Shown here: one piece after another, positions 57,760-64,000 of the stretch | How positions within the stretch are numbered: the stretch's first letter is position 1 | Layout: every line of letters starts with the position of its first letter | Assembly: GCA_030018355.1 (NCBI GenBank) | Contig: JASEFN010000002.1 | Location: forward strand, 234,699-298,698 | Length of the DNA stretch: 64,000 nt | Source: Caldisericia bacterium | GTDB lineage: Bacteria; Caldisericota; Caldisericia; B22-G15 | Direction: 5' to 3' | The notes under the pieces: model-generated | What the model was told of the DNA's origin: nothing | Database searches by the model: none | The model's input: the letters and a program-made list of their open reading frames with translations, nothing else | Program-made: the position numbers and the translations under genes

Positions 57760-58659
57760 ATGAAAAAGGGAAAGTATAACGGAATAATCACACCACTTAT
57801 TACTCCATTTAATGGAAAAGGTGAAATTGATTTTAAAGGATTTGAGAGTTTACTTCTTTTTTTAAAAGATAAAGTTGATGGATTTTTTGTAAATGCAACT
57901 ACTGGAGAATTTACATCACTTTCAATTGATGAAAGAATTGAGGTTTTAAAGTTTGTAAAAAGTGTTGTAAAAGAAGACAAACTAATTTTTTCTCACATAA
58001 CCTCAACTTCAATTAAAGATATTGAAAAAATCATTAAAGCATCTCATGATTTAAAGGTAAATGCAATAGTTATAACTCCTCCATACTATCTAATTCCTGA
58101 TAGAGATGGAATTAAAAATTTCTTTTATTTTATTTTAAAAATTTCAAATCTTGATCTATTGATTTACAATATTCCCTCTTGTACAGGATATTCTTTATCA
58201 GTTGATATTATAAAAGAAATTGCATTTGAGTGTGAGAGATTAAAGGGGGTTAAAGCAACAATTGATAGTTTAAGTTATATAAAAGATTTAATTTCAATAA
58301 AGGAAAAAAGAGAAGATTTTTCAGTTTTAACTGGAGTTGAACTCTATCTTGCACCAACTCTTTTATCGCATGGAGATGGAGGAATTGTTGCTCTTTCAAA
58401 TTTTGCACCTCTTCTTTTAAAAGAAATTATTTTAAATTTTGAAAACAAAAATTTTGAAAATTTTATTGAATCTCACAGAAAAGTTATGAAACTTTTTGAA
58501 ATTTATAAATATTCCTCATCATTTGCTAGTGCAATTAAAATTGCTTTAAATCTTTTAGGTTTTCCAATAAGTAAAAAAGTTAGAGTTCCACTAATTGAAG
58601 ATAGTGAAGAAAAGGTTGAAAAAATAAAAGATATTCTTATTTCTTTAGGTTTAATGTAG
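57760..58659 (+). CDS. DapA/NAL-family aldolase (dihydrodipicolinate synthase-like)
   Basis: 299 residues. GIITPLITPFNGKGEIDFKGF, VNATTGEFTSLSIDER (Thr-Thr motif), the tyrosine in LLIYNIPSCTGYSLS and the Schiff-base lysine in LKGVKATIDSL. TIM-barrel class I aldolase acting on pyruvate plus an aldehyde. DapA in lysine synthesis is most likely from the motifs, but stand-alone homologues act on other 2-keto acids and no lysine genes are adjacent. AAAGGAGG site. Confidence 0.82.
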   Translation: MKKGKYNGIITPLITPFNGKGEIDFKGFESLLLFLKDKVDGFFVNATTGEFTSLSIDERIEVLKFVKSVVKEDKLIFSHITSTSIKDIEKIIKASHDLKVNAIVITPPYYLIPDRDGIKNFFYFILKISNLDLLIYNIPSCTGYSLSVDIIKEIAFECERLKGVKATIDSLSYIKDLISIKEKREDFSVLTGVELYLAPTLLSHGDGGIVALSNFAPLLLKEIILNFENKNFENFIESHRKVMKLFEIYKYSSSFASAIKIALNLLGFPISKKVRVPLIEDSEEKVEKIKDILISLGLM

Positions 58660-59043: not shown

Positions 59044-60171
59044 CTATTTAAACTTATCTCTTATTTCTCTCAATAATTCTCTTATTGGTAAATTTTGAGG
59101 ACATTTTTCTTCACATTCACCACACTCTCTGCAATTTGATGCTCTCTCCTCCTCCTTTAAATATTCATATTCCCAAAAAGCCTCCTTTATGTCTCCATAC
59201 ATAATTAAATTGTTATAAATTTCAAAATTTTCTGGAATATTTACTCCATATGGACAAGGAAGACAATACTTGCATTTTGTACAATCTATTGTTTTTAAAT
59301 TGAGCCATTCATTTCTTGCCTTGATAATTACTTTTAAATCTTCTTCACTCAATGAATTAGTATTATATTTACTTGCAATTAAAATGTTTTCTTTTACTTG
59401 ATCCATAGAACTCATTCCACTTAAGACTGTCAAAATTTCTTTTTTGTTAAACAAAAAAGACAAAGCCCACTCTACTGGTGTTCTTTTAATTTTATAACTT
59501 TCAAAAACTTTAAGAACAGATGTTGGAGGAGAAGCAAGTTTTCCACCTTTATTTGGCTCCATAATTATGACTTGAATTCCTTTACTATAAGCATAAGAAA
59601 GACCTTTCTCTCCTGCTTGATAATTTATATCCATATAATTTAATTGAATTTGGCAAAAATCCCAATCATAATAGTCAATTATATCTTTAAAAACTTCAAA
59701 TTCATCATGAAATGAAAAACCAAAGAATCTTATTTTTCCCTCTTTTTTCTTTTTTATTAGCCAATCTAAAACACCTAAGTTTTTTACTTTCTCCCATGAA
59801 TTTTTCCATAATGAGTGAAGAAGATAAAAATCAATATAATTTGTTTTTAATCTATTTAATTGAACATTAAAATAAAAATCAAAATCTTCGTATTTTTCAA
59901 TTTTCCAAACTGGCATTTTTGTAGCAAGATAAATTTTTTCTCTTACCCCTCTTTTTTCAAAATAATCACCTAAAAAGATCTCACTCATTCCACCATGATA
60001 TGGATATGCAGTATCAATATAGTTAACTCCATTTTCTATTGCATAATCAAGCATTTCATAACTTTTTTTAATATCAATATCCTCTTCGCTTTCTATTGTT
60101 GGGAATCTCATTGCTCCAAATCCAAGTTGAGAGATAAGAATATCTCCTTTAATAAATTTTCTATAAATCAT
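59044..60171 (-). CDS. Aldo/keto reductase with C-terminal ferredoxin domain
   Basis: 375 residues. AKR barrel with LGFGAMRFPT, YAIENGVNYIDTAYPYHGG (catalytic Asp/Tyr), KMPVWKIEKYED (Lys) and FYLLHSLW (His). A C-terminal Fe-S part has CTKCKYCLPCPYGVNIP and CRECGECEEKCPQNLP. This is the ferredoxin-fused AKR type of anaerobes, probably ferredoxin- or NAD(P)H-linked; substrate unknown. AGGAGG site; overlaps the upstream kinase-like gene by four bases, so the two are co-translated. Confidence 0.88.
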   Translation of the reverse strand: MIYRKFIKGDILISQLGFGAMRFPTIESEEDIDIKKSYEMLDYAIENGVNYIDTAYPYHGGMSEIFLGDYFEKRGVREKIYLATKMPVWKIEKYEDFDFYFNVQLNRLKTNYIDFYLLHSLWKNSWEKVKNLGVLDWLIKKKKEGKIRFFGFSFHDEFEVFKDIIDYYDWDFCQIQLNYMDINYQAGEKGLSYAYSKGIQVIIMEPNKGGKLASPPTSVLKVFESYKIKRTPVEWALSFLFNKKEILTVLSGMSSMDQVKENILIASKYNTNSLSEEDLKVIIKARNEWLNLKTIDCTKCKYCLPCPYGVNIPENFEIYNNLIMYGDIKEAFWEYEYLKEEERASNCRECGECEEKCPQNLPIRELLREIRDKFK

Positions 60172-61793
60172 AATTCCTCCTTTAATATTATTACTTCATA
60201 TGGTGAATAATGTCTTAATGAAGAGATTCTAAAATTTAAAATTCCCTCCTTAAGTTTTCTAAATTCTTTCTTGTTCAATCCCTCAAGAAGATACTTTATA
60301 GAAAGAATCATCGTTTCATACCTTCCTTTTTTAAGATTCTTTCTTAAAACTCTTTCATTTTTAATTAAATAGTCATAAAGTTTATTATAATCTATTTCAA
60401 TTTGATCAAAAGAAAAAATGCAATATGTCCACATTCTTGAAACTTTTTCTAAAACTGTATGAGGTGGTTGCAAGATGAATATATTTTTTGAAAATCTTTC
60501 ATTGTTTTTAATATAAAAATTCTCTTTTTTTAACAAGTCTATTCCTATTTCAAGAAATTTTTCATAAAAAACTTTCAAATCTTCAACTAAAAAACTATTT
60601 ATGAAATTTTCTTTTAAAATTCTTTTTCCAAATGGATATTCAAAAATAAAAATATTTTCAAAAGCACCAAAAGGTCTTGGAATGTGAGGAAATGTATAAT
60701 ATTCAAGTGTTATAAAAAAATCTTCAAATTTTTTTATAAGAAAATTTAATAAAAAAGTTTTTATCCCTTTTTCTTTATTTTCAAAAATAACTTTTCCTAA
60801 AGGAACAACATGTTTTGTTTCTATTATTCCATCAAAAGATTTAAGTCTATTTGTGATTGAAAGATTAAATTTAATATCTGCCTCTTCAAAAATAATTTTT
60901 GAATAAAACTCCTTTTTTTCAAAAGATTTTTTCTCTTTTATCTTTTTTACTTTTAAAACCTTTCCTCTAATTTCTTTAAATCTTTTACCAAATTTTGTTG
61001 GAACTTCTTCTATAACTTCCATATGATCCAATGTTGATTTTAAAAAAGGCTCAATTAGTTTTTTTAATTTATTAAAATTTTTTTGATTAAATTTTTTCTC
61101 ATCACCATTTAAAATTAGATATAAATTTGCAAGATTAATTAATGAGAATCTCTTTTTTCCTAAAAATTTAATCAAATCCTTTTTGTTTCTTTTAAAATAA
61201 TCATTTATTTTAAAATAATCAAATTTTATGCTTTTAACACCAAAATCAATTCTCTTCCATAAATTAGAGATAACATTTGGCAAAATTGAAATTTCAGGTT
61301 CTTCAATTATTAAATTTTTAACATAATTTGAAGTTGGTTCTACTATATCTTGAAAAATATAAATTCCGGCTTCATGAAAACATCTTCTTGCTTCATCTTC
61401 ATCTAAAAGTTTCACAGGAAGGTAGGTAAAAAGTTCCTCATCAAAATAAAGTGGGTAATAACCTTCAAGACCCCATACAAATTCGTAATAATATCCAAAT
61501 GTATCAAATCCAAGAAGCCTTGGAATATGAGGAAATTTATATAATTCTTTTCTTAAAAAATAATCATCTAACTTTTTAGCAATAAGATGTCTTAAAAATT
61601 CTGAAAAAGATTTTTTAAAAAGAAGTTCTTTGCTTATAATATCTCCCTTATGGAGTACTCTATAACTTGTTAGAAAATCTCTTTTTGTGTAAAAATTTTT
61701 TTCAAAAAAAGGAAAAGATCTTCTAAGTTCAAGATAAACAGTTGCTTCACCTCCATGCCCAATTTCTGTTATCCTTTGAACTTTTTCATCCAT
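60168..61793 (-). CDS. Internally duplicated protein with kinase-like features, unrecognised
   Basis: 541 residues, no clear signal peptide. The N terminus ITEIGHGGEATVYLE resembles a protein-kinase glycine loop. Residues about 85-250 and 365-520 are diverged copies: KFPHIPRLLGFDTFGYYYEF vs TFPHIPRPFGAFENIFIFEY; then NLWKRIDFGVKSIKFDYFKI vs RMWTYCIFSFDQIEIDYNKL, each followed by a YLILNG/YLLEGLN helix. The first copy has HEAGIYIFQDIVEPT where kinases have the catalytic HxD loop; the second is more degenerate. Function unknown; a pseudokinase or lipopolysaccharide-kinase-like fold is possible. Leaderless start (TATAAT six bases before the ATG). Divergent from a sensor protein. Confidence 0.5.
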   Translation of the reverse strand: MDEKVQRITEIGHGGEATVYLELRRSFPFFEKNFYTKRDFLTSYRVLHKGDIISKELLFKKSFSEFLRHLIAKKLDDYFLRKELYKFPHIPRLLGFDTFGYYYEFVWGLEGYYPLYFDEELFTYLPVKLLDEDEARRCFHEAGIYIFQDIVEPTSNYVKNLIIEEPEISILPNVISNLWKRIDFGVKSIKFDYFKINDYFKRNKKDLIKFLGKKRFSLINLANLYLILNGDEKKFNQKNFNKLKKLIEPFLKSTLDHMEVIEEVPTKFGKRFKEIRGKVLKVKKIKEKKSFEKKEFYSKIIFEEADIKFNLSITNRLKSFDGIIETKHVVPLGKVIFENKEKGIKTFLLNFLIKKFEDFFITLEYYTFPHIPRPFGAFENIFIFEYPFGKRILKENFINSFLVEDLKVFYEKFLEIGIDLLKKENFYIKNNERFSKNIFILQPPHTVLEKVSRMWTYCIFSFDQIEIDYNKLYDYLIKNERVLRKNLKKGRYETMILSIKYLLEGLNKKEFRKLKEGILNFRISSLRHYSPYEVIILKEEL

Positions 61794-61799
61794 ATTTAA

Positions 61800-61817
61800 A
61801 TTATATAATGCTATAAT
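61800..61817. promoter_or_regulatory. Divergent leaderless -10 boxes: kinase-like and sensor genes
   Basis: Minus strand TATAAT (61800-61805), six bases before the ATG at 61793. Plus strand TATAAT (61812-61817), seven bases before the ATG at 61825. The gap between the two genes is only 31 bases, so the transcription complexes would exclude each other. Confidence 0.6.
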
Positions 61818-61824
61818 TAAAAAG

Positions 61825-64000
61825 ATGGATATAATTTATTATAATATTTTAAATAGTGTTAGAGAAATAACACTAGAATTATTAAAATCACAAATAACTC
61901 CAGATAAAATTTTATTTGCATTGAGAAAAGTTGGAGAAGGAGGAAATTTTGATAGAGCAATCTTTTTTGAAAAAGAAGATGATGTTTTTAATAAAAAATA
62001 TGAATGGATAAGAGATGATTCAATTGAAAAGCATGATGATAAAATTAAATTTGATAAAAATGAAATTGAGTTATTAAAAAAAGATGAAACATTAAATTTT
62101 AAAAATTGTGTAATTTTTCCTTTATTTATAAAGGACAATTTAATTGGAGTTATAAAATTTGAAATTTTGAAAGAAAAAAGAGAAATTTCTCCTTTTGATA
62201 TTTATGCTCTTAAAGGAGGAATTGAAGTAATTGAAGCATCTCTTGAAAGAGAGGAACTTATCAAAAATTTAAAAAACCAGAAAGAGTTTCTTGAAAAAGT
62301 TGTAAATAATGTAAAAGAATTAATAACAATTCAAGATAAAGATTTAACAATTCTTTTTGCAAATAAATCTGCTGGTGATTCAGTTAATAAAGATCCAACT
62401 GAATTAATTGGAAAAAGGTGTTTTGAAATATGGCATAAAAGAGAGGTTCCTTGTATAAATTGTCCTGTTCAAAAAGCATTTATGACAAAAAGATATGAAG
62501 AAGGTGAGATAGAAACACCAGACGGAAGGGTTTGGTTTATTAAAGGTATCCCTCTTATAGATAATAATGGAGAGGTCCAATATGTTGTTGAGTCAACAAT
62601 TGAGATAACTAAAGAAAAAGAATATATAAGAAAATTAAGAGAAAGTGAGGAAAGGTATGAAAAAATTTTAAATTCAACAAATGTTGGATTTTCAATTTTA
62701 GATAAAGAGGGTAAATATATTTATGTTAATAAAAAAAGAGCAGAAATACTTGGTTATAAAGAGGGTGAACTTTTAAACAAAAAATTTGAAGAAATAGTTC
62801 ATCCAGAGGATGTTAACAAAGATAAAGAACTTTATCAAAAACTTGTAAATGGTGAAATTGATAGTTATACAGTTGATTTAAGATTTATAAGAAAGGATGG
62901 GAATATTGCTTACAATAGAGTTTATGTTGCAAGAGTTAATGATGAAAAAGGAAATTTTTTATATACTGTAAATGCAATAGTTGATATTACAAAAGAAGTT
63001 CAATATTCAATTGATTTGAAAGAGAAAGAAGAAATTTTTAAAGGAATTTTTGACCAATTTTCTATTGGAGTTAATTTGATTGATACTAATGGAAAAGTGA
63101 TTTCAAGTAATGAAGCATTGCAAAAAATGTTAGGTTATTCAATTGATGAGTTAAGAAACCTCACATTCAAAGATTATTCTCATAAAGAAGAATTAGAAAA
63201 AAATATTGAACTCTTTGAAAGTGCAAAAAGAGGAGAGATAGAAGGGTATACACTTGAAAAAAGATTTATAAGAAAAGATGGAAGTGTTTTTTGGGGGAAA
63301 ATTACATCAAATCCAATAAAAGATGAGAATGGTAAAATCAAATATTTTATAACTCTTGTAGAAGATATTGATGATAGAGTAAGATATTATGAAAATCTTA
63401 AAATAGAAGAAAATAGATTAAGAGCAATTATAGATGTCATTCCAGATCTTATCTTTATATTTGATAAAAATGGAAATTTTTTGAATTATCACGGAGATTT
63501 AAGAAAACTTTTATTAAAACCAGAGGATTTCCTTGGAAAAAATATATCTCAAATTTTTAACAAAGAGATTGCAGAAAGAGCAATTTCTTCAATTAAAAAA
63601 GCATTAAAAGAAAATATAATCCCGTCATTTATATATGAACTTCCTTGTCCTTATAATAGAGATGAAATTTGTTTTTATGAAGCAAGATTCGTAAAACTTG
63701 ATAAAGATAAAGTTCTTGCTTTAATAAGAGATGTTTCTGAATCAATAAGAAACTTTAATCTATTAAAGAAAAAAGAAGAGGAATTGAATAAATCTTTTTA
63801 TCAAACTATAAATCTTCTATCAAAAATTGTTGAAATGAAAGAACCTTTTACTGCAGGACATCAAAAAAGAACATCTGAATATGCTGTTTTAATTGCAAAA
63901 GAGATGGATCTTTCAAATTTTAAAATTGAAAGTGTAAAGATTGCTGGACTTGTTCATGATATTGGTAAAATTGAACTTCCAATTGAAATTTTAAATAAAC
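61825..64000 (+). CDS. GAF-PAS-HD-GYP sensor phosphodiesterase (3' end outside the window)
   Basis: At least 725 residues, open to the window edge. Order: GAF-like domain (about 20-150); PAS 1 (about 155-265) with a Cys-rich CFEIWHKREVPCINCP; PAS 2 (about 275-390; GYKEGELLNKKFEEIVHPEDV); PAS 3 (about 400-515; GYSIDELRNLTFKDYSH); PAS 4 (about 530-650); and an HD-GYP domain from about 660 with MKEPFTAGHQKRTSEYA and the metal motif LVHDIGKIELP. HD-GYP enzymes hydrolyse cyclic di-GMP or related dinucleotides. The GYP motif itself would be beyond the edge. No membrane helix is evident. The ATG lacks a ribosome binding site. Confidence 0.87.
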   Translation, partial: MDIIYYNILNSVREITLELLKSQITPDKILFALRKVGEGGNFDRAIFFEKEDDVFNKKYEWIRDDSIEKHDDKIKFDKNEIELLKKDETLNFKNCVIFPLFIKDNLIGVIKFEILKEKREISPFDIYALKGGIEVIEASLEREELIKNLKNQKEFLEKVVNNVKELITIQDKDLTILFANKSAGDSVNKDPTELIGKRCFEIWHKREVPCINCPVQKAFMTKRYEEGEIETPDGRVWFIKGIPLIDNNGEVQYVVESTIEITKEKEYIRKLRESEERYEKILNSTNVGFSILDKEGKYIYVNKKRAEILGYKEGELLNKKFEEIVHPEDVNKDKELYQKLVNGEIDSYTVDLRFIRKDGNIAYNRVYVARVNDEKGNFLYTVNAIVDITKEVQYSIDLKEKEEIFKGIFDQFSIGVNLIDTNGKVISSNEALQKMLGYSIDELRNLTFKDYSHKEELEKNIELFESAKRGEIEGYTLEKRFIRKDGSVFWGKITSNPIKDENGKIKYFITLVEDIDDRVRYYENLKIEENRLRAIIDVIPDLIFIFDKNGNFLNYHGDLRKLLLKPEDFLGKNISQIFNKEIAERAISSIKKALKENIIPSFIYELPCPYNRDEICFYEARFVKLDKDKVLALIRDVSESIRNFNLLKKKEEELNKSFYQTINLLSKIVEMKEPFTAGHQKRTSEYAVLIAKEMDLSNFKIESVKIAGLVHDIGKIELPIEILNK

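Follow-up and report, generated by a model that had tools for sequence, protein, structure and literature searches.

The gene and its setting

What does a 541-residue protein do when it has no credible family match in Pfam, NCBIfam or PDB sequences, and lies in a Caldisericota genome between a sensor gene and an oxidoreductase gene? The open reading frame occupies 60168–61793 on the minus strand of the window, by which we mean the whole 64,000-nucleotide stretch of DNA analysed. As described in the first-pass annotation, it carries the glycine-rich motif IGHGGEATVY, at residues 11–20; no signal peptide was evident by eye. The spacing of 31 bp to a divergent PAS/HD-GYP gene was also as reported. 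On the other side, the stop codon overlaps the start codon of an aldo-keto reductase (AKR) gene in the sequence ATGA at 60168–60171, preceded by GGAGG; this ferredoxin-fused (Fer4) neighbour is likewise as reported. The features discussed below are as follows.

59044..60171, minus strand: AKR with a 4Fe-4S domain at its C-terminus; start codon overlaps the stop codon of the tandem gene (ATGA)
60168..61793, minus strand: tandem kinase-like protein, 541 aa, copy 1 plus pseudokinase-like copy 2 (ORF, profile self-comparison, AF2, Foldseek, residue counts, shuffles)
60171..61007, minus strand: copy 2, residues ~263–541, degenerate; the equivalent of D149 is K, of D183 is I and of R45 is V
61008..61793, minus strand: copy 1, residues 1–262, kinase-like domain with D149, N160 and D183 intact (AF2, Foldseek kinases, 35 single-domain relatives)
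61239..61259, minus strand: WKRID183FG, residues 179–185, predicted DFG-like metal site (coordinates from residue numbers)
61311..61349, minus strand: catalytic-loop equivalent D149-IVEPTSNYVK-N160-L, residues 149–161 (coordinates from residue numbers)
61734..61763, minus strand: Gly-rich loop IGHGGEATVY, residues 11–20, between predicted strands 5–13 and 17–29 (coordinates from residue numbers)
61794..61824, no strand: 31-bp divergent intergenic region between the tandem gene and the PAS/HD-GYP gene; arrangement not kept in congeners

An ancient tandem duplication

The two diverged repeats noticed on first reading are real: profile comparison of the N-terminal with the C-terminal half (hhalign) gave a probability of 99 and an E-value of 9e-18 over 227 columns at 29% identity. 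The C-terminal half was found again in a genome search by the profile of the N-terminal half (E 5e-16), as well as by the wider family profile (E 2.3e-23). Half-versus-half Smith–Waterman scores against 500 shuffles reached z = 19 for the window protein and z = 23–45 for five other tandem proteins; the biased composition of the 541-residue protein therefore does not explain the match. The protein is an ancient tandem duplication, far beyond chance.

On a tree of the separated copies, all first copies fall into one clade (99/98) and all second copies into another (100/100), the latter on long branches. Since the two sets form separate clades, a single duplication accounts for all tandem proteins, and the tree places this event earlier than the split between the Caldisericota genes and those of Spirochaetes. 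Transfer of the tandem gene between phyla is likely. One tandem gene (L056), from a bin labelled Woesearchaeota, groups with the Spirochaetes genes, reflecting either transfer or misbinning.

Family membership and distribution

Genome contigs searched with the window protein alone as query yielded no match, and the single-domain proteins and giant-ORF domains were reached by profile searches. About 45 relatives were found. Some are single-domain proteins, mostly 260–300 aa long and spread over many phyla of bacteria and archaea, and others are domains embedded in giant ORFs; a further four are complete tandem proteins of 567–583 aa (L056, L057, L059 and L060) from Spirochaetes and the one ‘Woesearchaeota’ bin. 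Within the genus, G001 and G002 carry orthologues of the window gene (57% identity in G001; the G002 copy is split across two contigs), and G003 has none.

One profile scan of named genome contigs recovered 34 loci of the domain family, distributed over Spirochaetes, Desulfobacterales, Syntrophobacterales, Bipolaricaulota, Acidobacteria/Blastocatellia, WOR-3, Latescibacterota, candidate phyla, Nitrososphaeria, Thermoplasmatales and Woesearchaeota bins. The family is sparse, occurring in 2–3% of genomes in the phylum of G337, which we infer to be Omnitrophota; giant ORFs have been described in Omnitrophota (PMC10066038). Four stand-alone members from the phylum of G337 (L032, L033, L034 and L044) bear an N-terminal hydrophobic stretch resembling a signal peptide, which the Caldisericota protein lacks.

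None of 44 members had a credible Pfam hit, and no credible match to the tandem family was found in phage records or PDB sequences. PADLOC returned scattered weak matches to the 44 members, the best being Csx20 at 4.5e-5 in two of them, which we judged to be chance. Open-access papers held no description of the tandem family, subscription papers and preprints lying outside the search. Relative to Pfam, NCBIfam, PDB and the open-access papers searched, the family is thus undescribed, and within the same bounds the earlier remark that no described family has this tandem layout holds.

Predicted fold of the first copy

An AF2 model of copy 1, built from a 44-sequence alignment, was confident (pLDDT 92.3, pTM 0.91). 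Its N-terminal part runs in kinase-like order through strand 1, the G-loop, strands 2 and 3, a long helix C, and strands 4 and 5; a hinge, a helix, D149, a strand with N160, strand 8, D183 and further helices follow. The motifs fall at places consistent with the predicted strands and helices, the Gly-rich loop lying at the turn between strands 5–13 and 17–29. In a Foldseek search of the PDB, the best 50 matches listed were all kinases (Rio1, Abl, FGFR, EGFR, CK2, JAK2 JH2 and others), led by Archaeoglobus fulgidus Rio1 (PDB 1zp9/1zth; E 9.8e-5, probability 1.0), and the list from the viral library BFVD likewise consisted mainly of protein kinases.

A confident model and kinase-dominated lists thus speak for the suggested kinase-like fold, although TM-scores against solved kinases were low (0.26–0.39, about 0.3) and rmsd values high, so that the overall superposition of copy 1 on them is poor. 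Profile comparison gave no link: hhalign probability was 0.1 for the family against both RIO (PF01163; a thin profile of 5 proteins) and APH (PF01636; 27 proteins), whereas RIO against APH, the positive control in the same test, scored 96. Copy 1 is predicted, not proven, to adopt a distant or atypical kinase fold. Copy 2 gave no confident fold model, and a full-length AF2 model of the 541-residue protein from four sequences (pLDDT 43) was set aside.

Catalytic residues in the two copies

None of the 35 single-domain members varies at seven positions, D149, N160, D183, H89, Y85, G108 and W179, and every first copy of the tandem proteins keeps these residues too. The catalytic Asp, the Asn and the DFG Asp thus stand in canonical order in 35/35 single-domain members and all first copies. 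Position 45 in strand 3 is R in 30 of the 35 and K in the other 5, and the first copies conform to this. In the Gly-rich loop (GHGGEA in copy 1), G12 and G14 are each present in 31/35. Position 76 is D or E throughout (35/35) but lies late in helix C; no residue stands out as the canonical helix-C Glu, and position 76 is a guess. The Asp-to-Asn spacing is 11–12 residues, compared with 5 in the usual kinase.

The second copies look quite different. Across all seven sequences, D149 is replaced by K, N, G or R, D183 by I, N, S or E, and R45 by V, I or L, while H89, Y85, G108, F139, G143, W179 and R215 are kept. Retention of scaffold residues together with loss of catalytic ones is the pattern of a pseudokinase; the protein thus combines one domain with and one without catalytic residues, related by duplication, as in a kinase–pseudokinase tandem. 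The degenerate catalytic loops ascribed to the protein in the first-pass annotation are accordingly a property of copy 2 only, since copy 1 has D149, N160 and D183 just where 35/35 single-domain relatives have the identical residues. The view that the first copy retains a mere remnant of a catalytic loop was mistaken, having overlooked the DFG-like WKRID183FG and the asparagine of YVKN160.

Neighbours in Caldisericota

A signalling or cell-surface module had been proposed from the HD-GYP and AKR neighbours; this is not supported, as these neighbours are not conserved and the wider family context points to central carbon metabolism. In G001 and G002 the gene upstream of the tandem gene encodes a HAD-type phosphatase, as read from sequence, instead of HD-GYP. 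In G003 the HD-GYP and AKR genes are both present, flanking a 106-bp gap that lacks the tandem gene. AKR occurs in 31 of 61 sampled relatives, including G003 (84% identical), and only G000–G002 of these carry the tandem gene. The tandem gene therefore has no faithful partner in either neighbour: AKR as an obligate partner is rejected on account of its presence without the tandem gene in G003 and other relatives, and HD-GYP as a functional partner on account of the different upstream gene in G001/G002 and the missing tandem gene in G003. A shared divergent promoter was also rejected, with 2 promoter-like matches near 61817–61888 against a shuffle mean of 1.5.

The tandem members in Caldisericota and Spirochaetes adjoin redox enzymes, not glycolysis genes. 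HAD-type phosphatase-like genes, again read from sequence, adjoin tandem genes in Caldisericota and in a Spirochaete (L054:5126–5779 and L060:7834–8625). Two genes off in the window (57760–58656) lies a DHDPS-family aldolase gene (Pfam DHDPS, 1.1e-52), possibly a keto-deoxy-sugar aldolase.

Single-domain relatives and a possible role in central carbon metabolism

With neighbouring enzymes assigned by Pfam or NCBIfam, 9 of the 84 genes lying no more than two positions from a family member encoded glycolytic or pentose-phosphate enzymes, as did 2 of 119 genes farther away (Fisher p 0.006; Poisson 2.7e-7 for the same neighbour count, assuming that 1% of genes are glycolytic), a test that is suggestive only, being biased in favour because the query enzymes were chosen from the same loci. 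The enzymes within two positions include GAPDH (L065, L076), PFK (L077), class I aldolase (L086), G6PDH with 6PGL (L063), and GAPDH-II-like proteins (L070, L085, L086) whose genes are coupled to or overlap the kinase-like gene. The GAPDH-II-like proteins (L070:4610–5836, L085:4866–5960, L086:1644–3926 and L082:5257–6321) score well under the NCBIfam type II GAPDH cut-offs and may be a different dehydrogenase.

Giant ORFs in the phylum of G337 join the kinase-like domain (X) to glycolytic enzymes in the orders PGK-X, X-PGK and GAPDH-X-iPGM: it is fused to PGK in L011 and L028, and in L029 it has a GAPDH remnant on one side and iPGM on the other. These three ORFs are 2,240–13,510 aa long, and separate standalone PGK genes lie elsewhere in the same genomes. 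Judged by gene order and fusion, the position of single-domain relatives beside or within such enzymes suggests a role in central carbon metabolism.

Comparison with known kinase-like systems

RIO1, the best listed fold match, is a compact kinase whose active site uses Asp, Asn and Asp, the residues predicted for this role in the present family. It differs in its TM-score of 0.32 and in showing no profile similarity to the family of copy 1, which has a longer Asp-to-Asn loop and mostly Arg in place of the strand-3 Lys. The APH and small-molecule kinase families (PF01636) have the kinase-like fold that is predicted here, and several act on small molecules, but they too lack profile similarity to the family. 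As in JAK-type tandems, an active-looking and a catalytically degenerate kinase-like domain share a single chain; unlike in JAK, the active-looking domain comes first, the protein is prokaryotic, and it stems from a separate duplication in an unrelated family. Bacterial Ser/Thr pseudokinase families (PMC12599244) and Legionella kinase-like families (PMC9758233), compared here by description, are likewise prokaryotic and were found by sequence and AF2. One of the novel Legionella families also has Arg in place of the catalytic Lys (PMC9758233); the review of bacterial Ser/Thr pseudokinases mentions neither tandem proteins nor Caldisericota or Spirochaetes (PMC12599244).

Interpretation and alternatives

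We favour, with a probability of about 0.6, a kinase-like phosphotransferase that carries a pseudokinase in the same chain and belongs to a family with a role in central carbon metabolism; the residue pattern and the duplication are its most secure elements and the substrate class its least secure. Copy 1 would be a probably active, ATP-dependent phosphotransferase of an undescribed PKL-fold family, presumably binding ATP and transferring phosphate by means of its Gly-rich loop, the basic R45 at the end of strand 3, the catalytic base D149 and the metal ligands N160 and D183. A single old duplication gave rise to copy 2, which lost its catalytic residues; most likely it is now a pseudokinase with a regulatory or scaffolding role towards copy 1, comparable to JH2 acting on JH1 in JAK. 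The family substrate is probably a central-carbon one: a sugar, a phosphorylated intermediate or a glycolytic enzyme. We hold more tentatively, at somewhat below even odds, the broader proposal of an unrecognised bacterial and archaeal kinase family acting on central carbon metabolism, either by phosphorylating a metabolite as a new kind of kinase or by regulating glycolytic enzymes, in which a tandem of kinase and pseudokinase evolved independently in Caldisericota/Spirochaetes.

If the kinase reading is true, the kinase-like superfamily gains a family that standard libraries have missed; it extends over several phyla of bacteria and archaea, and its conserved catalytic triad is directly testable. 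Its repeated placement beside or inside glycolytic and pentose-phosphate enzymes would then suggest that central carbon metabolism contains a phosphotransfer step or a point of control not yet described. With the tandem form, prokaryotes offer an example in which an active-looking domain and a dead copy have stayed together across phyla, useful for understanding pseudokinase origins.

Among the alternatives, the one that survives best, while still unlikely, is a protein kinase that regulates glycolytic or redox enzymes rather than phosphorylating a metabolite, its target in Caldisericota being AKR. Overlapping or closely spaced genes for GAPDH-type enzymes, PFK and AKR, the fusions with PGK, GAPDH and iPGM, and a best listed fold match to the Ser protein kinase Rio1 all fit such a regulator, but the partner enzyme varies by lineage and AKR occurs in many relatives that lack the tandem gene. 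We are more doubtful that a kinase-like fold serves other chemistry here, such as AMPylation (SelO-like), glutamylation (SidJ-like) or nucleotide sensing without transfer. The Arg in place of Lys in strand 3, the long Asp-to-Asn insertion and the low TM-scores are atypical enough to raise the idea; the canonical D...N...DFG order and the invariance of its three residues in 35/35 members favour metal–ATP chemistry with a catalytic base.

It is improbable that the protein is no kinase at all and that its motifs resemble those of kinases by chance on an unrelated fold: TM-scores below 0.5 and the missing profile link to RIO or APH would fit, but two structure libraries gave kinase-dominated lists and the motifs are placed in accord with the predicted strands and helices. 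Replacement of phosphoglycerate kinase by the kinase-like domain in an alternative lower glycolysis, prompted by the GAPDH-X-iPGM order in one giant ORF and the coupling with GAPDH-II-like genes, is rejected as highly improbable, because PGK is present in 29 of the 30 genomes checked (at least 27 of them with the kinase-like family), in most cases encoded by a canonical gene of its own.
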